Assembly (NCBI GenBank): GCA_015178975.1
Contig: WHVD01000086.1
Location: 186,001-250,000 of the forward strand
From: Hysterangium stoloniferum
Lineage: Eukaryota > Basidiomycota > Agaricomycetes > Hysterangiales > Hysterangiaceae
DNA: 64,000 nt
Direction: 5' to 3'
The notes beneath the pieces were generated by a model that saw only the letters and a list, made by a program, of their open reading frames with translations, was not told where the DNA came from and did not search any database. How positions within the stretch are numbered: position 1 is the first letter of the stretch; each line of letters starts with the position of its first letter. Below, one piece after another: positions 1-47,295 of this stretch. A program made the position numbers and the translations under genes.

Positions 1-565
1 GTAGATGTGAGGAAAAGGTCACAAACTCACAAGCTGAGAAGATCATGCCAAGGGAGATGAGCCATGAGGTGCAGATGAGGAAGAAAAGTTAGAAACTCAC
101 ATCCTAGGAAGAGCACACCAAAGGAGATGAGTCATGAGATACAGATGGAGAGGAAAAGGTCAGAAACTCACCATCTGGGAAGAGCATGCCAAGGGAGATG
201 AGCCATGAGGTACAGATGAAGAGGAAATGTCAGAAACTTACACCCTGTGTAGAGCATGCCAAGATCAGGTGTAGATGGTGAGGAAAAAGTCAGAAACTCA
301 CAATCTGGGAAGAGCATGCCAAAGGAGATGAACCGTGAGGTGGAGATGAGGAGGGAAACTGAGAAACTCACTTGCTGGGAAGAGCATGCCAAGGGAGATG
401 AGCCATGAGGTGCAGATGGAGAGGAAAAAGTCTAGAAACTCACAAGCTGGGAAGAGCATGCCAAGGTATATGAGCCATGAAGTACAGATGAGAAGGAAAA
501 AGTCAGAAACTCACAGTCTGGGAAGAGCATAGCAAGGGAGATGAGGAATGAGGTGCAGATGAGCA
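1..565 (-). repeat. Tandem 60-72 bp units, each an intron plus one codon
   Basis: Eight units of 60-72 bp, about 85-90 percent alike by eye. On the minus strand each reads as donor GTGAGTTTCTGAC, a pyrimidine-rich body containing CTCATCTCC, then GCTCTTCCCAG, followed by three variable bases and the next donor. The three-base slots lie at 31, 101, 172, 242, 302, 372, 444 and 515 and read CTT, GAT, ATG, GGT, ATT, CAA, CTT and ACT on the minus strand. The conserved part is the intron; the slot varies. The array continues past the left edge, and to the right it passes into introns of the same length but unrelated sequence. Confidence 0.9.
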
Positions 566-3392
566 AAAACCTACATTCTGTAAACATCACCAATTATTGT
601 TCCAGCAGTCAGTTAATTCTGTGATGTTTAAATTACAAGGAAAGCAAAGAACCCTTACCAACTGCAGTCCCAGATGTGAATACCATTGAGCACCTCTTTA
701 ATTTGATATACCAAACAAAACACATACAGTCTGAGTGACACCCAGTCAATTCACTACTCAAAATGTATATAATAACTGATAATGAATATATCACTAGCCT
801 CCTAAATTGCAACCAGCACAATAAGCCCTCACATGCAACAGTGTCGGATACACTCACTCTCTGTAGATAATGAAGGGGGATAAGCATTGTTATCCAGACC
901 TTGACATTGCATGGAACCAGATAACACATACACTCTGTTGGGCACACAAATCCAAAGTATGATAAGATGAGTGCCAAACCTTGGATATACAGTGCTTACA
1001 GCCTGTCTCAAATGTACTTGTTAATGAGCGCACTAGAGTTGTTTAGGGGAGACACTCACATTAATCTTGTTCGAGGGTCACAAACAAAGTATTAGTACAT
1101 GTCTTAGTAATCAGATCTAGCCTGCATTCCAACTCACTGCCTATCACATCCAAGCAGGCAGAGAATTGCCGTGAGTGGATGTAGTATGTAATTGGAGCTC
1201 AGAGAAAATTTACATGCTTTTGAGAATGTAGAAATCATATAAGGTCAAGTCCCATATAAGCATATAGGCATACTCACGCTCTGTGCAGTTTGAAACCGGT
1301 AGGATTATACCATTATCAGCTTGCATAATGATTTGTGCGTTAAGATGTGGGCACCCACATCCTGAATAATATACAGGCGGCTGAGCTACTGAAGGAACAC
1401 GCAGTACGAAAAGACTCACCATCTGCCAGTAGGTTACAGGAACAGCTATGAGCCAGTATATGCAAAACTGAAAGACACACCCACATTCTATTGGCGGTGT
1501 ACGGGATGAAGTTCATACAGCACGGAAACAACAGCAGGAGCTTACCACCTGCCGTGCGTGTCAGGTAGGTAAACGAAAATATGAACAGGCCATGCTCACA
1601 ACCTAAAATGGGGTGGTGGACAAACTACCTTCAGCAAGATTATAATAATATTTGCTAAAATACTCGCCACCTGGAAACATAATAATAAAATAATTCAATG
1701 ATCGTGAATAGAATAGAGCAGACTGCAGTAGAAATGTGTGTTACGTACTTTCTGTGGAGAGCGGGGAGATGGGGAGATAAACGTGATGATAATACTTCAC
1801 AACGTAGACCTACATTCTGCTCAAAAGCAATGATGTTGGGTAAGTCAAGGTAATAGTAATGACAAGGATGATCAACTCGCAAACTATAAGTGAAGCCAAA
1901 ATACCGGGATCAATAATCTGGAGACATTGTCGACACATGTATGGATACTCACTCTCTACCAAAAAAAAATCAAGAAATAACATGACAAGAGGATAGCTCC
2001 AAGTCACTTACGGGCTGTTGTTACCAAGGTTAAAACATGATAGTGCAGAAGTTACAACATTCTCGCACCAAGAGATGTGGAAAACAACGCATGACCGTGT
2101 AAAACAGGGATTTTGCTTGTTCTTTTGAAAATGTGTCTGATTCTACAACAGCTGAGAAAAGTGGTGCCCGTGCGTTTAACCGTCTGTCTGGGGTTGGCCA
2201 TATCCTCCCTCACCTTTTGCCTGTGGCATAATTGTCCTTGGGCATCTATGTATTGGCAGTCTGCTTTTGAAGGCAGAGAACTAGGTAGCTCACTCATTGA
2301 TAACTTGTTTGGTACGAGATTCAATACTGTTGCGCAATATCGAGAAACAGAACAGATTCAGAGTGTCACGGTCAAGAGCGTTTGAGGTTTTCACGACCAG
2401 CTCATTACAAGAAGCATTCCATTCTTGCATGCCTGAGAGAAGTATGGCTAAGCGGGTTGTTGTGTCATCGAGACAAGAAGCAGCATACCACGGAGCTTTA
2501 CGATATAACGCGGCTTGTGTTTCACCTCGTCGAGTCGTTTAAGATATCTCTCTTTAAATATAGCCTCTGCGCGAATAGGAACTTCCTTTTTAATACTTTC
2601 AGGAGAAAGATCATCATTCCACATTAACTGGTTGCGTGCCACCTGGTCCAGAGCATCCATCTTCGTGAAAACGACGATAATGGGGACTTAGATGAATTGA
2701 GAATGAGCAGTAGCCTCAACTGATGAAGACATTTGCTGACCATTTCCTGTGCCGTTCTGAAACAGGCTCATCTCTGCATCGGTCATCCCCCTATCGTTAC
2801 TAGTTGACAAGCAGTACCTGAACCGCAAAGTCAGAAATTAGAAAAATAACGCGGAGCTTCAGCGTACCAAATGACATGCAATCGATCCTTCAATTGCTCA
2901 CTCTTGGCTCGGTTTTCGATAAAGTCTTTAACTTTTTCCAGCTCTCCAGTACCGCCCGCTTCGAACCCGCAGGAGTCATGGAAGATAAAGCCGTGAGCAG
3001 TTGGGATTTGAAACCCTTGTTCGATGTCATGGTTTCCGCGCTGAAAAGTCACAGTGAGTGCACCACCACTGGAGCGCAAGTCGATCCGACACATACCGAG
3101 GCCGACGGCTCCAACTTGGTCTAAAGCAAGTAAGTAACAAATGAATAAAGTAAACTGCATTAGGGATATTGCAGGTGGGCATGGCGCAGATCGCTCACAT
3201 CAAAATCCACCCGTGGGGGACCCAGGGGATGGCACACCTTTTCCAGAATGGTTGTCTTTCCAGCGTTGGCGTTGCCAATGACCAAAATTCGAAAACGCTC
3301 GACGCGCTATTTGCATATTAGAAAAGAAATCTGCAATTGTTATCAGTACTCCCTACAAGATTATTTAAATTCTCAAGCTGTTGTTGCGACAT
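1..3392 (-). CDS. P-loop GTPase gene with a tail of single-codon micro-exons (partial, runs off left edge)
   Basis: Fungal TRAFAC-type P-loop GTPase; such proteins bind and hydrolyse GTP, but the cellular role of this family is unknown to me. ATG at 3392. Readable exons: 3392-3357, 3306-3199, 3120-3097, 3040-2868, 2817-2741, 2686-2489, 2432-about 2312, and 2151-2069. They encode MSQQQLENLNNL, then RFRILVIG with Walker A GNANAGKT, then RGNHDIE, HDSCGFE (G3 region), DRLHVIW, and VFTKMD (G4, TKxD). Most introns are 50-80 nt with GT and a YAG end; one ends in AAG. The join between about 2312 and 2151 is not resolved. After the exon ending FYTVMRCFPHLL (2069) the frame continues through 30 tiny exons (2012 down to 31) in phase 0, with no stop. 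There is no in-frame stop in the resolved parts. The gene is divergent from a second, broken GTPase. I am confident of the GTPase call; splicing of the tail is inferred. Confidence 0.8.
566..2068 (-). other. Non-repetitive continuation of the micro-exon array
   Basis: Twenty-two further slots with acceptor (CAG, TAG or AAG), three bases and donor (GTRNGT or GCRAGT) occur at 575, 659, 728, 799, 868, 932, 1000, 1060, 1138, 1214, 1278, 1359, 1420, 1485, 1546, 1600, 1668, 1749, 1814, 1881, 1953 and 2012. The slot at 1060 is six bases long. Start-to-start spacing is 54-84 nt. Donors at 799, 1668 and 1881 are GC-type. The introns here share no visible sequence with each other. The codons, read from 2012 downwards, begin PRFNKVVVNM. 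Confidence 0.75.
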
Positions 3393-3774: not shown

Positions 3775-3865
3775 TTTGCAACTAACATATATTAGCTAAA
3801 CTGAATTGTTCCTAATATGAATATCAGGAACCAATTCAGTTTTGCTAATATATATTAGTTGCAAA
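3775..3865. mobile_element. Foldback MITE, copy 1
   Basis: A near-perfect palindrome of about 91 bp. The arms start TTTGCAACTAACATATATT and close around a short loop containing AATATGAATAT. An almost identical copy lies at 57625-57728. No coding capacity. It sits between the two divergent GTPase genes. Small size, symmetry and two copies suggest a miniature inverted-repeat element; the parent family is not identifiable here. Confidence 0.8.
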
Positions 3866-4455: not shown

Positions 4456-5629
4456 TGGACACTAAGCCCGGACAACGAACTTCCTTTTTAGTCTTGCATC
4501 GGAAATTAACTCGGCAGCAATGACGGACTCAAATTGAATAAAACAAAATATAATATGATGCACTGCAAACATCTATGCCGTCGAACTCCAAGCAAACAGC
4601 TCACCCCAAAAATCAACCTCGAAAAAATATCTTTCGCAATGTAATGCTAATTAATAATACCCAAACCATTGATATTATTACTAGGAGCCTCGAGTTGGAA
4701 GTTGTCGATAATTAATAAAGACCCGGATACATGGAAACTAGTCATTTTCCGAAATACTATCTCGTATCTATGTAGTATACTCTACGAGTAGAACTTGAAG
4801 AACTGGGAAACTAATCAGTCCCATGCATATGTGTTCTAATTCGTCCACATGTAAATTGAAATCATATATATAGTATATCTACATGAACACATAATGGGTG
4901 CCGAGGACAATGAACTTGAAGCAGGTCAAAGGGACAAAAAGGGAGATGAGTGTGATGATGAGAGTGTGGCCACCAACGACAGTGATGAATTTGACTTTTC
5001 CGCCATTCGAGGTAGTTCGACTATGGAGGATGCTTTAGATGCCCAGAAAACTGCACGGGTCTTTTTTGAGCTTGATCAGGTGACACCGAAACTTGGACAG
5101 CTGGCTGAGTACCTCAAACATGCTCACATGACCAAATTGGACTTGACTTGTGCAGCTGGATCTCTCGGGACACTCATAACTGAGCTCAAAAGGATGATGA
5201 ATGATGTCGAGGATGACACATCATCAATAGATCCCCCGAAATCCGAGTCTCACCCCATACCTAGTGCCCCCCTCCCTTAGCCTGACACTCCTCCCCGTGG
5301 TAACAAACAAATGCATAGACAGATCATGGGACCATCACCAGAGAAGGGCAGCACGAAGAGACATAAATCTTACGGGTATCATTAATTAGCATTACATGGC
5401 AATATTGTATTCTGTTGACCACTTGCCTGAGCACTAGTTACATTGTGAAAGATATTTTTTGGAGGTTGATTTTTGGGGTGAGCTGTTTGCTTGGAGTTCG
5501 ACGGCATAGGTGTTGAGGTGCAGTGCTCATACTATATTTGGTATTATGTAAATTCAAAATCCGTCATTGCTGCCGACTTAATTTCCGACACTAGCCAAAA
5601 AAGGAAGTTCGTTGTCCAGGCTCAGTGTT
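4456..5629. mobile_element. Mutator-like (MULE) element, 1174 bp, long TIRs, 9-bp target duplication
   Basis: The 9-mer CACGTTTCT occurs at 4447-4455 and again at 5630-5638. Between the copies lie inverted terminal repeats more than 200 bp long, about 85-90 percent alike: GGACAACGAACTTCC at 4470 matches the reverse complement near 5602-5617, and GCCGTCGAACTCCAAGC at about 4577 matches the reverse complement near 5500. Long TIRs plus a 9-bp duplication are typical of Mutator-like elements. No transposase is present, so it is non-autonomous. It carries one open frame (4894-5280). Confidence 0.8.
4894..5280 (+). CDS. 128-residue acidic hypothetical protein inside the MULE
   Basis: An uninterrupted frame from ATGGGTGCCGAGGAC to TAG. 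The N-terminal third is rich in Asp, Glu and Ser (DECDDESVATNDSDEFDF). The middle looks helical (RVFFELDQVTPKLGQLAEYL and LGTLITELKRMMNDVED), and the tail is rich in Pro and Ser. No recognised domain, signal peptide or membrane segment. AT-rich sequence with TATATATAG lies about 30 bp upstream. It may be a gene piece captured by the element or a remnant of an element protein. I do not recognise it. Confidence 0.45.
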   Translation: MGAEDNELEAGQRDKKGDECDDESVATNDSDEFDFSAIRGSSTMEDALDAQKTARVFFELDQVTPKLGQLAEYLKHAHMTKLDLTCAAGSLGTLITELKRMMNDVEDDTSSIDPPKSESHPIPSAPLP

Positions 5630-6750
5630 CACGTTTCTATCGATCTTCTTCGTGCTAATCGAGCTCTCGGAGTAGGAAGTTTCTCATGATCGCTCTGGAA
5701 GAGCCGACATCCATACTGGTTTTTGTCATATCTATGTTTAGTCGATCCTGACAACTGGCGAGCAAACAAAGTGTAACAACCGATTTATCCTACATGACTC
5801 CGAAGGCTTCGAACCGAGGGAAGTTGAAAAGCTTAATAAAGTCTTTCATTGAAGAACGGACTCAGAACGGAAATGCCGGACGAAGACAAACTTTATGTCA
5901 TCTCATCTGGTGAGTTCCAAGTACCCCATCACGCTCCATGTTTCTCAAGACGCGCGTGAAATTGAGGATTTGTATATCAGTTCCCATGGTCAATGGTCGT
6001 GCCATAGAAACCGGAGTACAGGATGTTTTTAATATGGCCCGGGAACGAAGTGTTTTGTGACCTCCTTTGTGGTATAAATCACGACGATGCAGAACTCCCC
6101 GCTATTATCATATTCACGAAGTATGACCAGCTTGTCACGACAGCAATCTCCGAGAAGCTAGATGCTGTTGCTAATTTGGACAGGGAAAATATGCGGCAAT
6201 ACGGAAAGGATAAAGTAAGGCTTTCGAAATCTATGCATTGGCCCGTGGTGTGAGGCAGTTGGCAAGGTGCTGTTAAGTAGGTAATCATACCCGTTGGTGC
6301 TAACTGTATGAATAACGCACCTCTTGTCACTCGTAGCCCATCCGAGGTACAAAAATGCCATCCAGGTGGTGATACAAGCGACCGATGAAGAAATACAGAA
6401 ACAAACGGACATCTTCTCCCATATAGAACAACATTCTTTTAACTTCACTACCGCTCAAAGATTGAATACCGACATGAAAATTAACGCATCCATTGAATGA
6501 GTACTGTCTTAAGTAAGTTTGAGTTTGCGTACTGAGGTTTCGTTTGTACCTAATAGCATTGGCCGCCTAAGTATGTTTATATTCCCTTCGTGAACTTTGC
6601 GTTTGGTTTTTTTTTCTGACCACATCAACTCTGGAGCGGGTTACTTTCAAATACCGACTGCTCTGGAAAGAAACTTAAGCAATGTCTCGATGTGATCCAT
6701 CGTGATATCGTTTCTGTGTGGAACATCCGCAATTCGAATGTAGTGTTTTT

Positions 6751-7265
6751 CTTTTCTCGCACACGCCGCTATAGCCCTGATCTTTCCTCGTTGCAGTTAC
6801 TTGCTTGCGGTACATTCAAGGTGAAGCTGATGGTTCTTGTTGATGATTTGGCCTTCCAATCACCTGTCTCAATGTAGTATAAAGATCCTTCCATGTATAC
6901 TACAATTCTTTAGTTTGAATATTGACTTAGATTAGCCCTCCTCAGTCTCTTGCTTTCTTTCTCCCTGATATACCCTTAATGAGTGGTCTTTGGCAAGCTG
7001 TGACCCTCTACCCTTCTACTCTTAGTGATTTGGCCCTCCAGTCAATTAAGCTAAATGTTGATTCTCATTCATATTGTACTATCTGCTCTGTTTGAAATAC
7101 TGGAGCAACCTGACAGTTCATGTGAGGGCACAACACATAAGTTGAAGCCAAGCTCCACTACGTTTATACATAGAGTTGGACCTCCCAACTAGGATGATCT
7201 CTATCGTCGGCCCCCCAATTAACTCATTTCCTATCATTGGCCCCCCCAACTAGAGCTTTTTCCCT
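6751..7265. other. No gene seen
   Basis: Open frame on the plus strand continues to 6877 without motifs and is probably read-through of the GTPase relic. From 7150 to 7255 there are three imperfect copies of a motif like GGCCCCCCAACTAG, a short degenerate tandem repeat. Confidence 0.4.
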
Positions 7266-8110
7266 TCTTCATGGCTTAGATCTTAACATGGAGGCTCCAA
7301 AAGCACAGGCTTTTCACCTGTGGGGACAAATGCTCATTTGACATTGACTGCATTGAATACTTAGGTTTCATTTTGGGATCCAATGGACTTACGATGGATG
7401 AAAACAAAATATGGACTATCCATGAATAGCTGGAACCCTGGAAGGTCAAAGACATCCAGTCTTTTCTCAGCTTCACCAATTTCTACCATCAGTTCATTCA
7501 AAACTATTCAGATATTTTGGTTCCCCTTACTTGACTTACTCATAAGGGAACCCCATGGAATTTTATGGATCAATGCAGAATGGCTTTCCAACAGCTCAAA
7601 TATGTGTTCATATTGGTGCCAGTCCTTATGCACTGGCAACTGGACCACCTGATAATCATCAAAACTGATGCATCTGACTATGCACTAGCTGTGATCCTTT
7701 CCATTATTACATGTGATGGAGAAATTTACCCAGTTTCTTTCCTCAACAGAACTCAATTTATACTAATGTCCATGACAAAGAACTCCTTGCCATTTTTGAA
7801 GCATTCAAGGCCTGGTGTCATTACCTCAAGGGTTTGGGAATCCCAATTGACATTGTCACTGATAATAAGAACTTAGAGTACTTCACTACAACTAGGCTTC
7901 TTACTCATCAACAGGCCTGATGGTCAGAATACCTTTCTCAGTTCAACCTCATTATCCATTTTTGGCCTGGCCACCTGGGGGGTGGCAAACCTGACACCAC
8001 AACTAGACAATGGGACATCTACCTTAAAGAGGGGACCAATAATTATGCAGTAGTCACTCTGCATAATTTCAAGCCCATCATTATCTCAGAAGAACTGACA
8101 GCATCCCTTT
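7266..8110 (+). mobile_element. Ty3/gypsy fossil, reverse transcriptase / RNase H part
   Basis: Conserved blocks in order: IEYLGFILG, then SFTNFYHQFI, PVLMHW, IIIKTDASDYALAVILS (RNase H start), HDKELLAIFEAFKAWCHYL, IVTDNKNLEYF, and WSEYLSQFNLIIHF. This is the typical C-terminal RT and RNase H region of chromovirus-like gypsy elements. It is an old, broken fragment with several breaks; no LTRs can be assigned to it. Confidence 0.85.
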
Positions 8111-9049
8111 GAGCTTCTTCACTGGTCACACCAATACCTTGCTGTTGGAATATGATAAGGTTATGATTAGTACTATCTCATATCTCATCTTGTGATTGTA
8201 TCTGGTTCTGGTTCATGGATTTCTGTGATAGCAAAAATAGTTTGGTGTTAGAGTTCATGCACAGATCAGTGCACAGACTAATGCATAGACTATGTATTCT
8301 AGTATATACATAGTTAGTCCAGCTGAGTAACCATTATGAGCACCACACCTATACCTGTTCTAACCACTACCACAACCACAGCTGCAGTGGCCATTTTGCA
8401 AGAGTCACTGTATGTCACATACAAATACCCATCTCATTCTGGTTCAATGGCTGCCTATGTCAGAGCTAGGAGTTCCAGCCTCAATATTCAGGATGAGGGT
8501 ACAGATTTGGATTTGGAACCAGACGAGCTAGGAGTTCCAGCCTCAATGTTCAGGATGAGGATACAGATTTGGATTTGGCACCAGACAATTAGAAGCAGGC
8601 AGCATGGAATCCATTTCATTCAATTTTTCAGTTCACTCTGGTTTCATCTTTGTCACCCATTGTGGTTCTCTGAATCACAACTCATCTGCAATAATGGTCC
8701 TACATGTCTGCTGACTTGGCTGTTGGGGATGCTGTATTTTTTAAAGTGGGGAGGGGGGTAAGCCTGGTGAGGCTTACCACAACAGACCTTTAATATTTAG
8801 TATCTGCTTCCTTAGGTAATTAGGGTAAATGCACATAGTAGTTTTTTTCAATATCATTTTACCCACCATCACTATTGCATACTACCATCTCTGTTCATTG
8901 ACAAATATATTTGAGTCCTATCAACAATTGGACTGAGACTTAGTGAGGCTGCATTAGACAGCAGCCTTTCATGAAGTACATGATATATAGAGCCTCAGTG
9001 TGCACCATACACAAGCCTGGGTGCCAAATTTTTAATCTTGGAATATGTT
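8111..9049. other. Degenerate sequence, no gene supported
   Basis: Contains an open frame at 8336-8761 with a Thr-rich start and a duplicated 62-bp segment, without recognisable domains. The stretch around 8735-8800, with GTAAGCCTGGTGAGGCTTACC (a short hairpin), resembles the edge of a repeat. Probably remains of the neighbouring gypsy element's flank. Confidence 0.35.
8463..8586 (+). repeat. Two tandem copies of a 62-bp unit
   Basis: The units at 8463-8524 and 8525-8586 both begin GAGCTAGGAGTTCCAGCC and differ at only about four positions, so the duplication is recent. 62 is not a multiple of three, so the two copies are read in different frames, which argues against coding function. Confidence 0.9.
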
Positions 9050-9490
9050 CTAAAACTCTCAAAATTCCACAAAGACTATGGAGGCACATCCATACCCATA
9101 TCATTCAGGTGATTGCAGGCCACAGCTTCTATGGTGCCTGCTACCACCCCTTCCACCCCGACCTCTCCACCTCCTGCCCCTCTGGCACCATGGACATCCA
9201 GTCCTGCTCCACATCCTCTCCAAGTGCCCCCTCCACAAAGGCCTTGAAGCACTGACCAAGTTTATTGCTGTCTCCAATGCCTTCCAGAAGTCATAAGCAC
9301 TGCCTCACCCACCTCAGAACTCCATCAGTTCACCTCACCCCAGGCTCTTTCTCTATCTTCCCTGCCCTCCCTTCAATCCTCCTAACCCACTGCTTCCATA
9401 CCTTTCTCCTCTCTACCTACCTTTAGGGTATCTTTTCCCCTAACCCTTATGTATCTCAGTTATGTGATGTGGTATAAATGTATCAAAAAA
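9050..9490 (+). mobile_element. 3' end of a LINE-type retrotransposon (Tad-like), truncated
   Basis: The frames around 9090-9290 read HIIQVIAGHSFYGACYH, then CPSG, and in a neighbouring frame HILSKCPLHKGLEAL. This resembles the end of fungal LINE proteins, where a block like QVRTGHxYLGEYY is followed by CPCG and HILxECP. The frame slips between the two blocks. Downstream is a C- and T-rich untranslated stretch ending near 9480 in CAAAAAACAAAAAAG, which could be the poly-A-like tail. Only the 3' end is present, as usual for 5'-truncated LINEs. Confidence 0.5.
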
Positions 9491-13614: not shown

Positions 13615-16600
13615 ATCGACTATTACGGACTAGACAGTGAAGAGCTGAGTGGTTGGGTAGAGGAAGAGCGTTAGCTCTCCATGTGTGCGTGGGAAGACTT
13701 GCCGCTCACCTGCAAAAGGCCTGCCTACTACCATGGTGAGACTACGCCGCTCACCCAACCTAGGCAGCTGCATTTCTGGTGGACAGGTTCGATATGTGCC
13801 GTGATGCAATTTGCTCGAAGGCCCTTATGTATGTTTCATATGCTAAGGATTTCCATCTGCCCGCTAGTTGTACTATCTCGGGATCAACTCCTTGCGCTAA
13901 GAAGAAGGAGGCACCACCAATGCGAAAAGAATGGCCAAAGGTTGTTCCCCATCCACAAGCCTGGAGGACTGAATTAATCCGGTGGAGTGCTGCCTTTTTA
14001 ACTATTGGTCTGACCTCTCCCTTGTTGTCTCGCCAGCAAAATAAAGGATTGTCTGGCCCTGCTGGGACAACCTTGGCTAAATTGATCAAGGCATCAATCG
14101 GGCAGACTCCCTGTTGGTCCGTTATAAATACTGCCTGAATCTCTCCGACTTTGGCTGTCTTCGCAGATGGCAGGTCTAAATGTGCATAGTGTTTTCCATT
14201 GTTGTCACGACTAATTAGAACATCCTTTCGTTTTAGGTGTTTGGTGGTGTCAAAGTGTGGTCTGGATGTCACGGTAACCTCGCCAAAATGCATTAGTCCC
14301 CAGAAGGCGCATGAAGCCACTGCCCAAATGCATGCGTCGAATGCATCGCTCAGGTCCAGGATTGACTTCAGTGCGAATAACATCCTCAATTGTACTGGGG
14401 GTCGTGGGGGTCGTTTTCATGCCGTGCCTTGTAAGTTCTCCAATCCTCGTAGTGACCATTCAATTTTTGTGCGTTCCTCATTGGACAGCGGTGGTGGCCA
14501 GCCTTGTGCTATATGCCATGCCCTGATTGATGAGATGTATTTCCTTGTCATGCTGATGGAGATTGTCTTGAATCTGGTTCCAGCAGCCAGGCCATCTCTG
14601 AGAAATGATGGGTCTGCAGCTGCCCAGAGAGCAAAGGAATGGATCACTGGGAAGGATGCCGGTAGTCTGTCCACTTCTGCAATCGAGAAGATGTCGCAGA
14701 AGATGTGAAATTTTCATAGGCTGGTGCCGTAGGCTTTGGGTTCCTTTAAAGAGGCCTCTGACGCGATCGTTGCGATTAATTGGAGGACCGGGTGCTGTAT
14801 AGTAGCCGGCGGGGGGGTGTTGACGCCTCTCCACTTGAACAGCCTCTCTGCTGCTTTGCATGGAGGTCTCAGTGGGGATGGGGCTAGGTGCTGGTGATTA
14901 GATGATGATATATTCGATGCTCGGGTAAATGGTGCTGGTAGCAATGCCAGTGCTACGATGATTGGATCTGATGACGCAAATGGATGGGAATATCCATCTC
15001 GGCATGGGTGTTTGCCCTTGGGAAACCCCTGAGAAATTCGGTGATGTGTCCTCATGAGAGGGCGTCCGACACATTGTCTCTTGAGGGTATGTAAATGGCT
15101 TCCAAATGTATTTGGTGGGTGGCTAGTAGGCAGTAAATCTCTTTTAGGACCCTGTTTGTCTCCTTGCTGCGGGAACGACCCTTGTTTATAACGGCGACTA
15201 CCCCACTGTTGTCAGAGTGCACCAGGAACATTGAATGAGAAGGGAGATGATGGCGCAGCAAGCCATTCTGCAGTGCCAATCTCAGGCCCAGCTTTACTGC
15301 TACTGCTTCTGCCCACCCAATATCGCATTCACAGTGAGGGCCAACTTTGAAACTGGGAGCCCATTTCCAGGCAGCCCAATGGCAGTCGACGATGATGCCT
15401 ATCCCGTAGGATGAGCTGGCATCTCCCCACCAGCCGATGTCTACTACATCGGGCGATGGAATTGGGAGTTCATTTGGCAGATGCCGGAGTATGTACTGGA
15501 TCCAGGAGAGATCCGCTCGCACTGATGGGGTTGGCAGTAGGTGTGCTCTGCGAGAATGAAAACCGCTTGTGAATGCCGCGATGGACTGGAGAAAGGGCCT
15601 GATCCATGGGAAGATGGCCGACAAGTGCACCAACTTCCCATGTAGCTTCTCCGCCTTGTTTGCTGAGAACTGTGTGCCATCTGCCATCCACTGCGTGATC
15701 AAGGTGAGGGTTGCGCGTAGTTTCTCTGGTGGCACAGCAACTGTCTTGGAGTTCAAGTCCCATAGGAAGCCGATGTACTTCTGCACTGTTGCAAATGGTC
15801 ATGTTTTGCTTCTGCTCCATGGGACCCCGAATTGGGCGGACAAGGTGATGAAGTCCTCTTCTGTCCAAATCTGACCTGGAAGGCGAATGGCTAGGAAGTC
15901 GTCCACCCATTTGAGTAGCCGTCCGAAGCCTGCCTTCCGATACAGTGCTATCAGCATATCTGCAATGCTGCCAAAAAATCCGGCGCTGGAGGCCAGACCA
16001 AATGCTACTGCTCAGTCGACGTATACCAAGCTGTCCCACGAAATGCAGCAAGCGTTCTGTTGATCTGGTCTTATGGGGGTCACTCTGTATGCGGCAGAGA
16101 TGTCGAATATGGCTGCTATGCAGCCATTCGGTAAAGATAAGATTAGTGCTGCGGTGTCCGCAAAGGTGCCCCACTCTGTGGGAAAGTTGTCTGAATTTAT
16201 TCCACTGTTTATGGAAGGGTATTCTGGGTCTCCCCGGGGAAATGAAAGGTCTTGGATTAGGTGGTAAGTGTTGGAGTTTGGTTTTGGGATGAGGCCCAGT
16301 GGGGAGGTCTGAAATGGGCCGATGATCTGCTCTAGCTCTGCTGGGGTGAAGCCCCGAGAGTAGCATCCAGCCTCTTGTTCGCTCGCTATGTACTTGTATA
16401 TAAAGTCTGTGTCTAATGAAGAGGATTTGTGATTTTCGAAAAATGACAGTGCGCGATATGCAGTCCTTTACCCCAATATCAAAGCTGTTGATTAAACCTG
16501 AGATAATGTATTCCCATTTGTCGAGTATACCATATTTACTTAATGTACGTGCCGCTTCGATTGGATCAAGTGGCGTCGTGACCCCTCTTGGGTCAGAGAT

Positions 16601-18380
16601 GCTTGCAGGCTGCTGCTCCGTGGTCTTGCTCGAAGCAGATGCTGCACATGTGTGCATTGGTGCAGGTGTCACCCCACCGGCACTGTGTTCCTGTTGCCCA
16701 CTTGAAACAAAACTGCTTTCCATCGGGGAATGCCAAGGTGTGCTTGTTTCTGGCATCCCGGGCGATTGGGGCAGCGTTCTTCCCTGCTGATGTGAGTTTT
16801 GCTGTGCAGTCAGCCGGAAAGTGCCCCTGTGTCCCACACCAAAAGCAATGCGAATGTTCCCCATCTGTGCGAGGCCTCTTTCGAGGAGAAGTGGAGAGGG
16901 GTGGTGGCCCAGCTGGCCCGAGGTGTTTCGCTGGGGAGACTGAGGTGGTGCCGGATCTTGATGCCTGCAGTGCTGCCCATGTCGAGATGATTGTCAGGGC
17001 ATTGGTGTCCAGGCAGCTCAAGTTGTGGGTCGGGTTGCAGGCAGCTGCTTCATGCTGTTGCACATCGTATTCCATGGCCACTTCCCAGCTATGGGATTTC
17101 GCAATGGTTGTCACAACTGCATGGTGGGCCGAAAGTGCATCAGCTCTGGTGTCACCCCTGTGAATCCTAGTACGGTTGACTGCTGCTGCTGCCACTGAGA
17201 GCCAGTCGATGATGGAGATGCTCCTCTCATTATTGCAGTCCAACCCTTTGGCCACAATGTTGCCTGAAGGCAAGAAGGTGAATTCTTCCAAGCCTCTCTC
17301 TGCCTTCCGCCGTGCCTCCGTAGTGAGGGCTGTATAAGGGACGTAGTGTAGGTTCCTGAAGGCTTCCTCTACCTTCCGAGGAATGGCTGTGAATGGATAC
17401 AATAAAAATGAGCTGGTTGGCCCCTGACACAAGGTATAATAATGAATAGAAGGTGCGGCAAGCAATAGAAAAAGGGGGGGGGGGGGGATTGCACTGTATG
17501 ACTGGCCCAGAGCCTGGCATCAGTTGGACTGCCATGGGACTCTGCAGGCCAGCCGCATGACGGCTTAACTCATGCTCCTCCCAGGTGCCAGCGGCTCCCT
17601 GTGGTGGACTGTCTGTAATGGGGCGCCGGCCTACAGGCCGGCCCCTGAGCTGTCTGAATGATGCTGCACACTGAGAGTGCTGTGGCTGTGTCCAATTGGG
17701 CCAAAGAGAGAGATATATGGACTCACAGATCTCTAAGGCATTGGCCTTGAATCCTGGAATTATATCAGGGACTGCTGCCTTCTTGGTGGTCCTAGTGTCA
17801 CCAGCCATGGAGGCCCCTATGTTGGCCAGCTGGATCATATCCGGGTCAGTGAATAATCTCATCACACCTGGTGAGACGTCTGAAAGGACCCTGCTGCCAT
17901 GGACATCTGGTCTGCCTTGAGCCAACAGGAGGTCTCGACGTGCAGCCAATTGCGCAATTTGAGCCTCTAGTTGATCAATCTCATGAGGGGGGGAGGACTG
18001 GCGATCTCCCTGATTGTTGCTGGTGGCCTCCAGATGTGGGATGGCCGGGGAATGTGGGATACCAGCTGTCACCGAAAGAGGAGGTTCTGGTCCTGCTTCG
18101 GGGTGGGTGCCCTTGAGGGTTCAGGTTGATACCCAAGTGGGCGAACATGCCTTGAGGTAGGGATCTGGATGTCATCGAGTGAGCTTTAAAAAAAAAATTA
18201 ATTGTGTAGATATGTAGAGATAAGGATCAGAAGTCAGTGATGAGAAAACAGAAAGGACTGAGGATTGACAGTGATGTCGTACGAGAACACAAGGTGTGTG
18301 AGTCCTACATATGCTCAGCTGGACGTTGAGTGCCGAACTACTCCCGGCACACCAGGGATCGTGCGGCACTCGACACTATG
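13615..18380 (-). mobile_element. DIRS-like tyrosine-recombinase retroelement, broken
   Basis: Read on the minus strand the parts come in the DIRS order. A gag-like region (about 18.07-16.6 kb) has a zinc knuckle CFWCGTQGHFPADC and a second Cys/His cluster CTNAHMCSICFEQDH. Reverse transcriptase (about 16.5-15.8 kb) has KWVDDFLAIRLPG. RNase H (about 15.8-15.05 kb) has DIGWWGDASS and HSDNSGVVAVIN. Tyrosine recombinase (about 14.86-13.76 kb) has HSFRIGGASFFLAQG and LAGRWKS. Flanking copia gag pieces show that it inserted into that gene. There are no LTRs; a hairpin at about 18325-18377, GTTGAGTGCCG against CGGCACTCGAC, lies near its 5' end. A small number of breaks; moderately old. Confidence 0.8.
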
Positions 18381-34700: not shown

Positions 34701-36295
34701 GATTCTGGTCCACTGGCTGATACTGCCAGTGAGCTTAATATCCTTTTGGATGACTTTCGTGGCCTGGGTGACTCTGATGCTGATATCCTGGCTGCAATCT
34801 CAAATATGCCTGCATGTGATGGATCTACATCTTTTGAGGCAGACCCCCTCACCTGGGAGGAGGCTCGGAACTCTCCCCATGGAGATGCCTGGCATACTAG
34901 CTACCAAGAAGAACTTCAGTCCTTATGAGACATGGGGGTATATGAGTTGGTACCATGTTCAGAGGTCCCTGCTGGCACCAAAATCCATAAAGGAAAACCA
35001 GTCTTCCATGTCAAATGGGATGCCATGGGGGAAGTGACCCGCCGTAAAACTAGGCTTGTCTTTAAGGGTTTTGAGCAGGTCTATGGGTGTGATTACGATA
35101 AAACAACCTCACCTACAGCCCGGATGGAGTCCTGGCACCTTCTCCTGCATATAGCAGCCCATTTTGGCTGGGATGCACAGCAAATTGACGTCAAAACCGC
35201 ATTTTTGTATGGTTTACTCCCGGATGATGAGGTCCAATATATGTTCCAGCCAGACAGTTTTGAGGAGCCAGGAAAAGAGTCTTGGGTATGGCGGATTGTC
35301 CGTGGCTTGTATGGCATGAAACAGGCAGGTCGTATCTGGAACCAAACAATGCATGAGAAAATGTTGAGCTGGGGATTTACTCAGCTCTCCAGCGACTCTT
35401 GCATATACTACTGCAAAACATCACTAGGGATTGTCATTACTGCAGTCCATGTCGATGATTTTCTGTCCATTTCATTGTCCCAGGCTGAGAATGAGAGGTT
35501 TAAACAACAGATGAAAGAGGTTTGGAAAATTTCTGATCTTGGGACAGTCTGCTTTGTTGTTGGCATAGCTGTCGAATGGGACGGGCCAAATCATGTTGTT
35601 AAGTTATCTCAGACTGCTCTAATTGATCACCTCATTTCTCAGTTCAGCCAAACCGATGCTACTCCCCTTTCTATTCCTATGGTCCCTGGCCTCAAACTAA
35701 GGCATGTCATTCGGTCTTCCCTCCTGGCAGATGACCAGGACAACCTGGCCAAACTTCCATACCGTTCGCTTGTTGGCTCCCTTCTATATCTTGTTCACAC
35801 TAAGGACAACCTGGCAGACATATTCACCAAAGCATTGGAGAGCCCACAGTTTACACGTCTTCGGGCCTTTTTAGGCTTAAAATAGGCATACACAACAGGA
35901 GTGGTATTGCAGTGAGGAGGACTGTTGAGGAACAAAGACACCGCACATATGGATATATGGATCAGGGTCAACTGTTACCAGAATCAAGCGAACAATGGTA
36001 ACAAAGGTACAAAAATAGCACACCCTTTGTTGTGCCATTATTCCCTTTTGTTCCTATGTCTCACCTCTGTGCCACTCATCTACCTATTGTTCCTCTTTCA
36101 TATATATATCGTGCAGATACCATAGTTTTACCTCAGTCTGTTGTACTATCATACAAGACTGAGGTAAGCTAATCTTTTCCATATCAACTGACTATTATAT
36201 TAATCACACATGTATTAGATATATTCTAGGTACTTAGGTAGTCTGTTGTACTATCATACAAGACTGAGATATATTCTAGGGATTCATTTTTAACA
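31794..36295 (+). mobile_element. copia element, full length, both LTRs present, broken
   Basis: LTRs 31794-32167 and 35923-36295 start TGTTGAGGAAC, end TTTTTAACA and are about 96 percent alike, so the insertion is fairly young. The primer site GGTTATGGGCT follows the left LTR. Parts in order: gag (about 32.24-33.0 kb, knuckle CSNCKKQGHIVTYC), protease and GAG-pre-integrase (about 33.1-33.6 kb, TWHRHLGHANYQSI), integrase (about 33.6-34.3 kb, VWVDLAG, YRTDNGE), and reverse transcriptase (about 34.9-35.8 kb, QQIDVKTAFLYG, VHVDDFLS), ending in DNLADIFTKALE. A handful of breaks. It is inserted in a gypsy LTR. Confidence 0.9.
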
Positions 36296-36391: not shown

Positions 36392-39300
36392 TGTGAGGAG
36401 TATGCTTTTACCACAGTTTCATTATGGTAAAACACTCCTTTTATTTTATTTATATTTTACACATTTTATTCATATTTTTCTATTCTTTATATTCTTTGAA
36501 TATTGCACCATTTCATTAGTTTGAAGCTTTGTGTATACTTGTGGGTGCACTTGGCACCAAATGAAACTCAGACACACTTTTACCCAAGAACCACCACTCG
36601 TAAGACATAAACTAGGTCTACTACGAGTGGTGATCAGGGTAACGTGTCAGCTACTACATAGGTAGCAATATCTGAGCTATCTAACACTTCAGGCCTCGAA
36701 CTATAGCAGTCGAGGCCTCCACTCGAATCATCCATCTTCCCATTCTACTCATTTCTTCATATATAGAACAGTCAGAACTTATACCACTCTTCACAGTGGT
36801 GATCTGGGCCGGACCGTACTTTCCCTACGAAGAAAAACCTTTTATTCAACTATCAAATTCTAAGTACAAAAGGCTGTCTGGAACTCCTTGCATGCTGACC
36901 ATTGCAAATCTGGTTACATGGAAGGTAACTTGAACTTCGAGCAGTTGAGTCCCTTGGAAAGACAAAATGCTCACATCTTCATGAAGGATACCCTGGTCTT
37001 CCCACCAAGACAAGTTATCCTCAAACATCACGGCCAACCACTTTATTCAGAGCCTGTCAACATGAAGTGGGACTCTTACTACACTTCTCGAGTTTCAAGA
37101 GATAAGGTCATCGCTGCCATGAAGGATTACAGGACTAGATACCTATCCATGCCTATAACAGTAGCAACTTGGCTAGGTCAGTATCATGGCATCATATCAG
37201 TGCAGGACTTATTCACTAGGCCTGGAGCTCTCAATGAGGTGACAAAGTCAATACCAGAGTGGTCAAACGAAGTGGCATCCTTCCGAGAAAAGGGATTAGT
37301 GGGTATCAAAATGGAACTATTCATTCTGCTCACCGATTTGCTTTGCACACATGACGATTTACTACAGATTCTGCATGTATTGCTCGGAGGGAACCACATC
37401 TTGCCAAGGGTCGACTCGAACTTCATGTACATTCGAATGTTGGAAGAGTCTCTTCACAGAAGAGTGCTGCCAGTGTCCTTCACCTACTTCACTCTCAGAG
37501 CAAGACTGATATGCAACCTGGAGAGATGTAATGAGATGATGGTGGAATTGCTCAGTAGGTTTGATGAGCCAGCACGAACACCCTCATCCTCCAGCCCTGG
37601 TCCCTTTCATGGAGAATGTCCTGGGATCCATGCCAGATCAACCACCAAAAAAGGACAGTCATCTTTTTTAAATGTGTCTACAGCAAAGATCACAGTCAAA
37701 GTCGACTCCAGTTCCCCATCATCCTCAGGTCGAGATTCGCAGTGTCCTGACAAATCTCACCATCCATTGCCTATCCATCCTAGCCCATTTACTCCCCCGA
37801 ATGGACCCTCCCAGAAGTTCTCCAATAGCTCGAATGATTGGGACTGCGATAAAGGCTTGGGAACTGGGGAGCAGAAATCAGATGATGGTTTTAATGATAT
37901 AAAAGGCACGGGACAGAACTCACCAACAGTAAAGCCATCCCATCTTGCAGGACTCAACAAAAGCTTTCCCATGGAGATACCACTGGGAATTCATCGACAT
38001 AAATCCCTGATCCCAGAATGGGGGGTGCTGATGAAGTTTCTGCAAATGGAAGATGACCACGGACGCACCCCACTGGATACCCCTTGACAGACCAAGCCGA
38101 GGACAGATACATTTCCGTTCGACCCAGGACGCTCCCTCGAAAATTATGTCACGTGGGGGATGATTGTTATGTTGCAAGATCGTTCTGGAACAACGGTATC
38201 ACAACAGGGGCAGTATAGGAGGTATAGGAGAAGGTGCATATGAATCGTCACCTACAGCCAGTCGGAGCACACAAATGACTATGTCACCAGTCTCACCGAT
38301 GAAATGGTTGAAAGCTGGGTGCAGTGCATGAGCATGTAGCAGTACAGGTGTGCAAGCATGAAAACCAAGTACACGACTGCACTGCACGAGTGCACACAAG
38401 TGCATTCACAGGTACACAAGTATGCGACTGCACTGCACGAGTGCACAGGTGTGCTGCATGGACACAGTTTGAAGGCATGCCACGTGGGTGCACAACTGCG
38501 GGCAGGTAGGTGCACTGCGTAGGTGCGCTGCGCAGGTGCGGGCATATGGGTGTGGCACATGAACATGGATGTGTGCATGCAGTACGTGGATGGGGGCGTG
38601 CTGCGTAAGTGAAGGTGTATGGATTGAGGACGCCACACGAGTGCGCTGCATGGGTGTGCAAACGCGCTGCACAGATGTGTGAGTGCAACTGCACTGCATA
38701 GGTATGGGCATATGGGTTCAGTGCATGGATTAGGTGTGCAGCATGTGGGTACATAGTGGTGGGCACAGTTTGAGAGTACACAAGTGCACTGCAGGCGTAT
38801 GGGTGCAGGTGTATGGTACAGGCATAGCGGTGTGGGCATATGGGTACGGTGTATGGGTACGACGCATGGTGGTGGGTGCGGTTTTAGAGTATGCACAACT
38901 GCGCTGCACAAGTGCGCATAACTGCGCTGCACAAGTGCGCACAACTGCACTGCACAAGTGCATGCAACCGCGCTGCATGAGTATGCACAACCGTGCTGCA
39001 CAAGTACCCACAACCACACTGCACAACTGCGCTGCATGAGTGCGCACAACCACGCTACACATGTGCGTGCAAGTGTGGGCATGTAGGTGCACTGCGTAGG
39101 TGTGGGTGTATGGGTGCAGGGGTATGGTACAGGTGTATGGGTGCAGTCCATGGGTGTGGTTCAAGGGTGTGCTGCATGAGTGTGCAAGTGTGGCAGGGGT
39201 GTGGTTCGAGGGTGCGCCACGCGGCAGTTCAAGAGTGCGCTGTGCAGTGGTTCAAAGGTGTGCAAGTCAGTATGTGGATGGCATCACCGAGCAAGACGAT

Positions 39301-41750: not shown

Positions 41751-43341
41751 GCTATGCTTGGACCAATCAATATTTGTTACTAACTCCTCCTCAATGATGA
41801 GCCATCCATCATACATGATGGTGTCCTGTGGTGACAAAGGGAAGGAAAGAGGGGGCAAGGAGATACATAGGAGTAGGGGGAGAAATGACCAAGTTGGCAG
41901 TAGGAGTTTCCAAAGAGGAGAAGTCTGATAAGTCCATGTTGACAATGTAGACATGGCCATCAGCACCTTGTAACCTAATAGGAACTTTTGGCACAGCAGG
42001 CCCAGGAGTGGTGGAACTGGTGGTAGTCACAGTAGAACTGCTTGATTGTGAGCCACAGGCAAGGTGGCAAGCCAGTTTGGATTCATCAAGAGTCTTACCT
42101 GCCATGCCTCCACCAGGATGGATACAGAATTCCACTTCATGGTAATTGTGTTTGCAATTAAAGCAGGTCACAGAGTTGGATTTTGAAAGGTGTTGAGCAG
42201 ACATGGTGATAGAGTCAGTAGGATGCACTTTGTCAGGGTTAAGGAGGTTTCTGTTCATTGTCCAAATAGATATGGAGTTGGGAAGATGTAAAAGGGGTTG
42301 GTAGATGCAGAGATATCCAAAGTAACAATGGATCATACATTGCCAAAATCATTTCCAAGAGAACCTAAAAGGGGAATATATTTCAAAAGGTCTTTAAAAA
42401 TGTCACCCATGTCATAAACACAATTGATTAGAGAACAAATTTTCTTGGTAGTCACAGGGAGTGGATTGGGCACAATGAGTCATGAGGGCTTCCTGTTGTA
42501 ATTGCACTTGGTGAATCGGTCCCTCACTCTGGTGGCATTTCTGGATAGCCTCCCAACAGACCCTCACACCCAGTGTACAATCAAGGTATTCTTGCTCAGA
42601 TGTCTCAACAATGGAGATGATGAGTTCAGTGGCCAAGGAGTTATTTGCCAGCCAGTTAGCCTTGGCATGAGGCTCAGTACCATCAGGTTCTGGGATTGTA
42701 CCATCAATACAGCCAGAAAGTCCAGTGAGGGTAATAGAGGTCTGTGGCATGAAGCCAAGGACAATAGTTTGATTTAATTTTGTCAAGTTTGGGTCCTGTG
42801 TAATATTGGTATGGACAAGGGTAATGGAAGGCACAAGAGCAGCCTGGAAGTCAAAGTAGTCATAGGTAAAAAAACAACATTGGTCCTGCTTAAAAATATA
42901 GGCCCATAACCTGTTAGAAAGTAAGACTAATGATAAACTCAGTCTCATATTAGTGTATAATGGACTAGCTTAGATACCTAAATAATAAACTATAATACAC
43001 ATAAGTAGACTCAAAGAGTGATGTGAGTGAAGCAGCTTATCTCAGTCTTGTATTAATGTATAATGGACTGAGGTATAAGAAAAACCTGGCGGCCACTTTT
43101 TCCTCCATGCGGTTATAGATGCTCATGCACTGTTAGTTAGCACTTATTCGCTTCCTGTTACCACATGCAAGCACATGGGTCATGTGAGAAGTACCAGTAT
43201 GTGTAATGTTTTAGAATTTCTGGGGATATGCATTGCACCTGTGTTGATTGGAACAATGTGCATCCTAGCCTTCCGTATCATCATTGATTCCACTTTGACA
43301 TATGCCATGTTCTCTTCTCCGGGTGGGGATATATTTTAACA
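41751..43341 (-). mobile_element. copia fossil: LTR and gag
   Basis: On the minus strand: an LTR (43341-42912, ending CTAACA), then GGTTATGGGCC as primer site, then gag (about 42.85-42.1 kb; LTGLSGCIDGTIPEP, then the knuckle CFNCKHNYHEVEFCIHPGGG), then sequence of the protease region. It is broken, with several breaks. Only the 5' third remains. Confidence 0.8.
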
Positions 43342-44674: not shown

Positions 44675-47295
44675 CAGTCGACTCTGTTATAACCCATACG
44701 TCTTGGGATAGGTCCAGGGGTATGGGTTTTGGGAGAGTATGGGTTATGAGGGAGGTTGATCATTGATGAGGCAAAGTTCACAACTGTCTACATAAATTCA
44801 AACCTACTAACATTACTGTAGGACGCAAACTATTTAGGTTCGAAATAACTATTCAATTTTGTCCTTTTCATGGATTGCATCTCAAGAACCCGTGTCCTCT
44901 TCCCTAATGAGCCCAGCATCGACTCCAACTTACGCACAAATGGATCATCGAATTCTTTGATGTATTTTCCCAAAACTAATGCCACCTGGAGTGCTTCACT
45001 GCGTGTAGGAGCCGGTTCGACAAGCCCACTGTTGCTGTCTGCTTCATTGCTATTCCCTCCACCATTTTCTTCCTGCAACGCTTTTGCATCCATTACAGCT
45101 TGGTAGATATCTTCATCAGTTGACTCGAAGATATTGTGTATCTCAGCAGCTGGGTTGAGAAGTTCTGTGATATCCATTCGGTTCGAGCGTTGGAGGGCCC
45201 CAGTAAGTTCTAAATCATCCAATGCTTCACAGACAGTGTTCTCAGCATGCACAATAGGATCACTCGGGTTGCGTAATTCGGTGGCATGGATTAGTGATGA
45301 GATGGGAAGGGACGGTTGAATGAGGGGTGATGATGGTGATTAGTTGGTGTTGGGAAGGATGTTGGCTTTACGCCAGCAGTTTCGGATCGTTGTTGTGTCC
45401 ACCTCATTCCATGCATCATCAGCAAGTTGCATAGCTTCGAGCTGATCAATGTTGTAGATTTGTAATGGGATGACACCAGCTTCATAGAGGTGGATGGCAC
45501 GGTTGATAAATTGAGCATGATATTTTGCCTTGAAACAGTGAATGATTCCCTGGTCATTGGGTTGAATGTGTGGAGTGAGGTTGGGCTTGAAATTAACAAC
45601 TTGTATGTTGGTGAGGTTCTCTGGGATGATGTGTTCTGAAAAGTTGTCCTGCAAAAGTAAAATCTTCCGCTCTTCATTCCAGAGCTTCCTATCCCAATCT
45701 AATAGCCACTCCTGATAGAGAGTGCCTGTCATCCATGCCTTTGCATTATTCCGATAATAGAAACCAAGTTGTGCACCGGTCTTGTTCTTGAATGCCCGTG
45801 GCTTTTGTGCTTTTCCAATGATAAAGAGAGGTAGTTTTTTTGAGCCATCGGCATTTGCTGTGAATAGATATGTAAGTCAAAGTTTCTTTCCTTTGATGCC
45901 AGAGTGTTGCTTGTCAGCAAGTCCACGATCTGGAGGCATACTGTAAATATTTTTAATCAAGCCTAATCAACATTCAAAAATCAAAGAGAACTCACACATA
46001 GAAGAGAGAAGATTCATCTGCATTAAAAATATTACATGGCTTGTAGCCTTCTTTTTTGATAAGCTCTTGAATTCACAGCTGCTCCTTTTCGACCGTATCA
46101 GGAGGTGCAGAGGCAGCTTCACCATGCCACTTCATATCCTTCAATCCATTGCGTGCTTTAAAACTGCTCAACCATCCATCACTCAGGTTGAGACGTTCAT
46201 CATCTGGTATACCTACAAGGTGAGCAAATGTTTTCCATTTCTGGCAAAGAACTTCGCCAGTAAGAAGCAGCTTGTCTGCCATTGCCTTTGAAACCCAAAG
46301 GTCCAACATCTCCATAACCTCTGGATGCTGTGTTTGACGAATCCTTTTGGCTGAGCATGCTGAACTTCTGCTGCTTTCATACTCTGCTCGCCATCTTGCT
46401 TCATCCTTGACCCATGCTGAGACAAGTGGCTGCTTGATTTTGAGGCTGGGATAGATTGTACAAAAACGATTTGCTGTTTTCTTCTGGACCTTACCATTGG
46501 CATTATGCCAATTTAGGATCTCAATTCTTTTTTGAAGTGTTGCATTTTCTTTTTTCTGAGATTCTGCAAATGGCTTAAGGGGTTTCCCACCAGGTGTGGG
46601 AATATCACTGGTAGTTGGGCCTACAAACAATTTACTGAGTACAACCTGCAATGTACATCTATATAACATAGAAATTTTGAAGTCTTACGCTTTCGCTTCT
46701 TTGAAGGGGCCTCATTCTTCCTACCACTCTCTGCAAGTCTCTGCAGCTTCTGTACAACTGTTTTGGCTTGTGAATCCAACCTGGCAAAGCCTTGTTCATA
46801 GTCAGATGCACTATCCAATGTCTCCACCACCCTTTCTTCATCTATCAAATTCCCATCACCATCAAGCCAGTCCTGATCAACCTCTGATATGGGTTGACCA
46901 GCTTTCAACTCGACCTCGAGCCTGGTTCTCCGTTCTTGAATCTGGTCATAAAGCTTAGTTAATCTTTTTTTAGAACCTCAACAGGTTTCATGATGAGAGA
47001 GGTTAGTATCTTAGATTGGTTTCCGGTTATTGTTGCCATTTTGGGACACATATATGTACTGTATGTAAAATCAATGATTATATAACCAAATAATTTCCTA
47101 ATGTATTATGTCAGGGTTATCCGAGTATACATATGTATGGGTTATGATGACCAAAAATCAGTATGGGTTATTGGTTATTGGAGAGTATGGGTTATCAATA
47201 CAAAATCCCTGTAAACCGACTTGGGAAATTGAAAATCCTATGGGTTATTAAGGAGTATGGGTTATATGGGGTATGGGTTATATCAGAGTTGACTG
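44675..47295 (-). mobile_element. pogo/Tigger-type DNA transposon with intact ends
   Basis: Terminal inverted repeats CAGTCGACTCTGTTATAACC (44675) and, read inward from the right end, CAGTCAACTCTGATATAACC (47295), flanked by TA on both sides (44673-44674, 47296-47297), the standard target of Tc1/mariner-pogo elements. Subterminal copies of TATGGGTTAT recur at both ends (at least six between 47040 and 47280), likely transposase binding sites. The transposase gene fills the interior on the minus strand. Confidence 0.95.
44830..46908 (-). pseudogene. pogo-type transposase (CENP-B-like helix-turn-helix, DDE catalytic domain)
   Basis: The N-terminal part (about 46.9-46.6 kb) is acidic. The CENP-B/Tc5-type HTH region (about 46.6-46.1 kb) includes KKTANRFCTIYPSLKIKQP and SDGWLSSFKARNGLK. 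Catalytic motifs follow: FNADESSLFY (first Asp), LLLQDNFSEH (second Asp-Asn) and QPNDQGIIHCFK (third Asp, about 45.55 kb). The tail runs to LNSYFEPK and stop at 44830. One intron (GTGAGTTCTC to TTTACAG) lies near 46000-45945. Two in-frame stops are seen: TGA at 45879-45877 (KKL-stop-LTYLFT, Arg expected) and TAA just after ANILPNTN near 45342. The enzyme is therefore probably dead, although the ends could still be mobilised in trans. Confidence 0.9.

Follow-up and report, generated by a model that had tools for sequence, protein, structure and literature searches.

A GTPase gene of Hysterangium stoloniferum with a predicted train of at least 30 codon-sized exons at its 3' end

Can the tail of a protein be encoded one codon at a time? 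This question is raised by a stretch of 64,000 nucleotides from the basidiomycete Hysterangium stoloniferum (GenBank assembly GCA_015178975.1, contig WHVD01000086.1, positions 186,001 to 250,000 of the forward strand), here called the window, in which the minus strand behind a GTPase gene carries a long series of splice acceptors and donors that lie only three bases apart. We consider it probable that the 3' part of this gene is a genuine, uninterrupted train of phase-0 microexons, at least 30 in number, of which one holds two codons and the other 29 a single codon, and that this train has grown by tandem duplication of an intron together with its codon and has been selected for codon diversity. 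The anatomy as such, a GTPase gene whose tail runs into at least 30 codon-sized exons, is strongly supported by the sequence, and the best explanation of the train is that a C-terminal tail is encoded in it, of which at least 31 residues fall within the window and which continues past its edge.

The train was defined on the minus strand by a strict motif, consisting of an acceptor ([C/T/A]AG), a slot of three arbitrary bases and a donor (GTRNGT or GCRAGT). In positions 1-2069 there are 23 such sites, compared with a mean of 0.19 and a maximum of 3 in 2000 dinucleotide shuffles, a kind of test that had been suggested by the initial annotation, in which the train was first noticed. A chance train of motifs is thereby ruled out and the train is real. 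Outside the tandem repeat that occupies its far end, in positions 564-2069, 15 strict sites are found, compared with a mean of 0.21 and a maximum of 3 in again 2000 shuffles. When the slot length is varied in 1-2069, lengths of 0-2 and 4-15 bases give 0 or 1 site and only the length of three is enriched, whereas the minus strand of the other 61,931 bases contains 8 strict sites at slot length 3 and 5-11 at the other lengths. A looser motif, YAG-k-GTR, gives 25 sites at k=3 and a lesser peak at k=7, with 11 sites; these we take to be GTNNGTR donors that are recounted four bases further on.

The full chain is unbroken and comprises 30 introns of 51-81 nt (mean 64.8) and 30 slots, of which 29 have 3 nt and one has 6 nt. 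Beginning next to the GTPase gene, the predicted microexons, all on the minus strand, are 2012-2014 (CCC, P), 1953-1955 (AGA, R), 1881-1883 (TTT, F), 1814-1816 (AAT, N), 1749-1751 (AAA, K), 1668-1670 (GTG, V), 1600-1602 (GTT, V), 1546-1548 (GTG, V), 1485-1487 (AAT, N), 1420-1422 (ATG, M), 1359-1361 (GAT, D), 1278-1280 (AGC, S), 1214-1216 (CAT, H), 1138-1140 (GCA, A) and, as microexon 15 and the sole six-base slot, 1060-1065 (ATTAAT, I N). They continue with 1000-1002 (GCT, A), 932-934 (AGT, S), 858-860 (AGA, R), 799-801 (GAG, E), 728-730 (ACT, T) and 659-661 (TTG, L), and end with 575-577 (AAT, N), 515-517 (ACT, T), 444-446 (CTT, L), 372-374 (CAA, Q), 302-304 (ATT, I), 242-244 (GGT, G), 172-174 (ATG, M), 101-103 (GAT, D) and, as microexon 30, 31-33 (CTT, L). 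In phase 0 this chain reads PRFNKVVVNMDSHAINASRETLNTLQIGMDL, with 31 codons (21 distinct) for 17 amino acids. Behind slot 30 the donor GTGAGT opens another intron that exits the left edge of the window, so that 30 microexons are a minimum. In the following, single slots are named by their low plus-strand position, and the 21 slots and introns nearest to GTPase exon 9 are called proximal, the nine slots from 575 to 31 distal.

The initial annotation had given the motif for all 30 slots, which is exact for 23 of them, namely for 9 of 9 distal and 14 of 21 proximal ones. Seven slots, all of them proximal, need relaxation: the donor is GTGAGC at 1600, GTAAGC at 1546 and 1000, GTAAGG at 659 and GCTAGT at 799, slot 1060 deviates by its six bases, and slot 1214 is the weakest, with AAG/CAT/GTAAAT. 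The annotated coordinates were correct for 29 of the 30 slots, and only 868 has to be replaced by 858-860. The spacing had been described as ordinary intron length; the gene's eight ordinary introns measure 48-78 nt. The peptide as well as its phase 0 behind the exon that ends with FPHLL could be confirmed. The argument that had been drawn from the open frame is weak, however, because 31 random codons are free of stops in about 23% of cases ((61/64)^31), and the stops in the other two phases are not independent evidence. As a conventional exon within this stretch, the longest open stretch of the minus strand (120 codons, 995-636) was considered and rejected; its length is equalled in 245 of 1000 first-order Markov trials, and by eye its base composition lacks a clear codon periodicity.

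The gene in front of the train was modelled by hand at its 5' side, with nine exons that start with an ATG at 3392 and extend to 2069 on the minus strand, which together give 870 nt in frame, i.e. 290 codons, behind which the codon slots begin in phase. Exon 1 (3357-3392) contains the start codon and reads MSQQQLENLNNL; its donor GTAGGG is followed by a 50-nt intron that ends with AAATAG and keeps the frame. Exon 2 (3199-3306) encodes the P-loop GNANAGKTT and is followed by exon 3 (3097-3120), exon 4 (2868-3040) with the G3-like FHDSCGFEAGG, exon 5 (2741-2817), exon 6 (2489-2686) with the G4 motif VFTKMD, exon 7 (2294-2432), exon 8 (2214-2245) and exon 9 (2069-2151), which ends with FPHLL in phase 0 at the weak donor GTGCGA, where a read-through leads to VRECCNFCTIMF and a stop. 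As this donor is weak and the read-through is open, a short and a long form of the protein are both possible. The spliced model contains the motifs of a TRAFAC-type GTPase in the right order, with GNANAGKT for GxxxxGK[ST], DSCG for a DxxG-like motif and TKMD for [NT]KxD. Its best profile matches are GTP_EFTU in Pfam (E 1.3e-4) and small_GTP in NCBIfam (E 9e-6), both under the curated cut-offs. Ten GTPase-type or P-loop models of Pfam matched at E up to 1, and among these matches there was neither a NACHT nor an ankyrin domain. The N-terminus MSQQQLENLNNLRVERFRILVIG runs straight into the P-loop, and by eye a signal peptide is not obvious. Presumably the protein resembles a large family of G-domain proteins of mushrooms (Agaricomycetes). 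A degenerate FHDSxGFEA pattern gave 0 matches in viral_contigs, and the PDB sequences contained no useful relative (three weak matches, best E 0.044).

A decayed second GTPase relative is found at about 5750-6500 on the plus strand, and thus divergent to the first gene, with FILHDSEGFEP and IIIFTKYD. Its kinship is drawn from a G4-like motif, which has two matches in the window, one of which is the gene itself, against 0.01 expected, and from one of three tested peptides, which matches at 45% over 29 residues, with E 6e-5 against the gene alone but only 0.20 in a tblastn search of the whole window. Behind the relative, in 5401-9400, there is no strict site with a slot of three bases and no array of codon-sized exons. 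Between the two divergent GTPase sequences lies a nested inverted repeat (4456-5631) with arms of 77 and 72 nt that are 96% and 88% complementary, possibly a mobile element, and just upstream of the GTPase gene there is a foldback element (3775-3865), whose 34-nt arms are 94% complementary and 23 nt apart.

If the slots are exons, the introns around them should carry further splice signals. Within the 19 nt that precede each acceptor, AG occurs 4 times over all 30 introns, compared with 10.6 in shuffles, of which 6 in 1000 were as low, and the 21 proximal introns alone show the same depletion (4 compared with 9.9; 18 of 1000 as low). A branch-like CTNAY is present in the branch-point range of 20 of the 30 introns, where 13.4 are expected (10 of 1000 shuffles as high), and in 4 of 7 ordinary introns. 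The donors have T at position +6 in 25 of 30 introns of the train, compared with 1 of 7 among the gene's ordinary introns (Fisher p 0.0012), and in 17 of 21 proximal introns (p 0.003 for the same comparison); the initial intron of the gene, with GTAGGG, stands outside this comparison and likewise has no T at +6. This excess fits a need for donors that are independent of the three exonic bases. The strongest argument for exons is, in our opinion, that acceptor, slot and donor keep following each other at ordinary intron spacing (14 of 21 slots by the strict motif) through proximal introns that have no detectable similarity to one another, with none of 210 pairs reaching a Z above 4 and a mean Z of 0.11. 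Altogether, the splice-signal tests support the slots as exons, if unevenly, and splicing at these sites is what we infer from them.

At its far end the train is built from copies. Positions 9-563 (minus strand) form a tandem array with 8.0 copies of a unit of about 70 bp, with 77% matches and 5% indels as determined by Tandem Repeats Finder (TRF), and each unit consists of an intron and a codon slot. This array, which is absent from the initial annotation, is the young part of the train, and it makes the distal slots non-independent. The nine distal slots form the longest strict train of the window, and 8 of the 9 are distinct. In the alignment of the nine distal units the introns differ pairwise by 0.17 per site, compared with 0.72, 0.75 and 0.42 at codon positions 1, 2 and 3. 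Of the 36 pairs of units, 35 differ in the slot codon and one pair shares it, compared with a mean identity of 59% for non-overlapping windows of three columns, and the slot has the lowest pair identity of all 64 three-column windows. Selection for amino-acid changes would leave such a pattern, with positions 1 and 2 saturated and position 3 less changed, and this selection, rather than mutation, is the probable cause. The third base is T in 18 of the 31 slot codons, compared with 84 of the 290 GTPase codons (p 0.0019), and in 7 of 9 distal slots (p 0.004). Codons with T at the end (NNT) cover 15 amino acids and are never a stop; the preference may persist because such codons cannot turn into stops by a change at position 1 or 2.

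A precedent for the fungal splicing of such trains exists in the truffle Tuber melanosporum. Its nank (NACHT-ANK) genes are reported to contain tens of alternatively spliced, codon-sized (3-bp) microexons as a mechanism of diversification (Iotti et al. 2012, as cited in PMC4986451, PMC3689799 and PMC10197012). Measured by these secondary accounts, the suggestion of the initial annotation that a run of so many one-codon exons is new is not supported, as the kind is already known. Its reading of a host gene tail that is cut into microexons is, in contrast, borne out at the level of anatomy, although it missed the origin by tandem duplication, the hypervariability of the codons and the alternative ending that results when the first intron is retained. 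The train described here is like the nank genes, as far as the citing papers portray them, in that consecutive 3-bp exons occur by the tens (in our sequence anatomy 29 with 3 nt and a single one with 6 nt), and unlike them in that the host is a GTPase and not a NACHT-ANK protein. The nank type is also marked by a large paralogous family; in the window the GTPase has one decayed relative, at about 5750-6500. It may thus work like the Tuber nank genes, yet it is not one of them. New here are the GTPase host and the signature of duplication plus diversification. In the literature searched for single-codon or codon-sized fungal exons, the coverage of which largely excludes subscription papers, the three accounts of the Tuber nank genes alone came close, and a train of this sort was not found described for any GTPase.

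Other systems share single traits with the train. The micro-exon genes (MEGs) of Schistosoma, with which the Tuber genes are said to be compared in the abstract of Iotti et al., have symmetric exons of about 6-36 nt and encode secreted, variable proteins. Many consecutive symmetric microexons are common to both, but here 29 of 30 exons have 3 nt and they stand behind an intracellular-looking GTPase. In recursive splicing, the ratchet points (AG/GT) correspond to an exon of zero length. The near adjacency of acceptor and donor and the stepwise removal of a long stretch are similar, whereas in the train one codon would be added at each step. Introner-like elements are near-identical short introns of one genome that are dispersed over many genes; the introns of the tandem array are likewise short and near-identical, but they stand head to tail, are confined to this array within the window, and each has its own codon.

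How could such a train be expressed? Each short intron would be recognized by intron definition and the train would be spliced stepwise. With each intron removed, the growing exon would be extended by one codon, by which the next donor becomes usable, and the donors would carry their strength within the intron, since each of them must work behind any codon. A stepwise joining appears to be the likeliest order, because two sites with only 3 nt between them would probably not be occupied simultaneously, and introns of this size are probably recognized as units. Since all cassettes have a length divisible by three, the skipping of any of them would leave the frame intact, and a large number of different tails could arise by combination. 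Growth of the train would occur by tandem duplication of the intron-plus-codon unit, followed by a driven divergence of the codons at their first two positions, which is what diversifying selection on a recognition surface should produce. The Tuber genes suggest by analogy that the tail may serve as such a surface. With 30 or more one-codon exons in a row, the train would put to the test how small an exon the spliceosome is still able to join, and by what means neighbouring introns separated by just 3 nt keep from interfering with each other. If the codons are indeed diversified, protein evolution would proceed here residue by residue, by unit duplication and exon choice, outside the truffle receptor genes. 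Gene finders and short-read aligners are expected to miss such exons, so that tails of this kind may be common and unseen.

More tentatively, and with considerable doubt on our side, the train could be a germline codon-cassette system, in which each cassette holds one codon, new cassettes arise by duplication, positions 1 and 2 are diversified by selection or by directed mutation, position 3 tends to T, and in-frame skipping multiplies the repertoire. If true, this would amount to an evolvable, combinatorial receptor-like tail at the resolution of single residues.

As alternative to growth by duplication, near-identical introns of introner-like origin could have been inserted between the successive codons of a once ordinary exon, in which case the peptide would be old and contiguous and no diversifying selection would be involved. 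A basidiomycete gene with massive intron gain is the subject of PMC3584928, and an insertion of introns would account for dissimilar codons amid similar introns. However, it would need a head-to-tail run of one element in a single orientation, exactly one codon apart and always in phase 0. Two units that were used as queries found no further copy in positions 564-64000 of the window, and the frequent third-base T of the distal slots looks as though it had been copied along with the unit. We regard this origin as unlikely. Quite unlikely, in our judgement, is an ending of the GTPase by read-through of the weak donor (with FPHLLVRECCNFCTIMF and a stop), which would make the array a relic, or a 3' untranslated or decoy splicing region of rare or regulatory use, whose partly spliced RNAs carry premature stops. 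The weakness of GTGCGA and the 12 open codons behind it agree with such an ending, as do the in-frame stops that are met in 23 of 30 introns when these are read from their first base. A relic should nevertheless lose its 3-nt slots and pairs of sites while the introns diverge, but the proximal units have retained them (14 of 21 by the strict motif), and a non-coding decoy needs neither slots of 3 nt nor a diversity that changes amino acids.

That the array is a non-spliced tandem repeat, or an array of protein-binding sites, which resembles splice junctions by accident is hardly credible and already largely refuted. It is true that the distal 555 bp are a minisatellite, and that CRISPR-like arrays and coding repeats of bacteria and phages can form long trains of the same motif. 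This is illustrated by a control set of 127 bacterial and viral loci, 103 of which were fetched with a three-unit version of the motif (23 loci in viral_contigs and at least 80 in genome_contigs) and 24 with the repeat core; the latter, single-match loci in viral_contigs, were taken as chance, and the contig of the window, which should match several times within one locus, is apparently absent from that collection. Among the controls, a bacterial locus (L104) has 28 consecutive motif matches at a spacing of about 66-70 bp with one constant slot, by which spacing and slot alone it appears CRISPR-like, another bacterial locus (L089) has 13 consecutive matches, mostly at 72 bp, and L029, from a phage-like contig, is a coding repeat with a period of 27 bp. 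The two bacterial arrays are a caution for searches that rely on motif trains. Yet the 14 longest control trains, with 6-28 sites, which are those that were read for slot variety, contain only one or two distinct slot sequences each, compared with 8 distinct ones among the nine distal slots of the window, whereas in the GTPase gene the 15 strict sites outside the repeat lie in introns without detectable similarity to each other and the train starts in phase behind the gene.

Some observations weigh against the train of microexons that we prefer, or reduce what its evidence can carry. The first donor, GTGCGA, is weak, and where it stays unused the gene stops after 12 further codons, and slot 13 has poor sites at both ends. 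No GTPase homologue was found outside the window in a protein search of viral_contigs, which gave two pattern-matching stretches, none of them confirmed. There is no pyrimidine tract beyond the intron average (65% compared with 64%), and in the 21 proximal introns CTNAY is found 11 times, compared with 8.0 expected, which is not significant (106 of 1000 shuffles as high); the overall enrichment of this motif is therefore partly due to copied repeat units. Because the motif that guided the initial selection of the chain by eye itself prefers T at +6, the excess of this base is partly built in, and the same holds for the multiples of three, since the choosing motif contains a 3-nt slot, for which the scan of slot lengths is the unbiased test. 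The hypervariability of the slot comes from nine units, and 1 of 67 intron columns is equally variable; moreover, the next-lowest non-overlapping window, which lies beside a gap, has 7% identical pairs, so that alignment noise can come close. Finally, third-base T is found in 11 of the 22 proximal codons, which is not significant (p 0.053 against the GTPase codons and 0.12 against the T content of the array).

The remainder of the window contains several pieces of mobile elements. Copia-type parts are located at 34932-35885, 42412-42948, 58529-59794 and 61232-62761, with matches to RVT_2 or Retrotran_gag_2, of which the one at 42412 is below the Pfam cut-off, and three overlapping open reading frames (ORFs) at 58529-62761 suggest a nearly intact Copia-type element. 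ORFs at 13760-18072 on the minus strand resemble by eye a retroelement of the DIRS kind, with tyrosine recombinase and RNase H; the three of them that were tested had no Pfam match at E 0.001. A Tc5-type transposase DNA-binding domain is encoded at 46073-46669 on the minus strand. Low-complexity repeats with overlapping periods of 13 to 69 bp occupy 38279-39151, where the minus strand is open over 290 codons.

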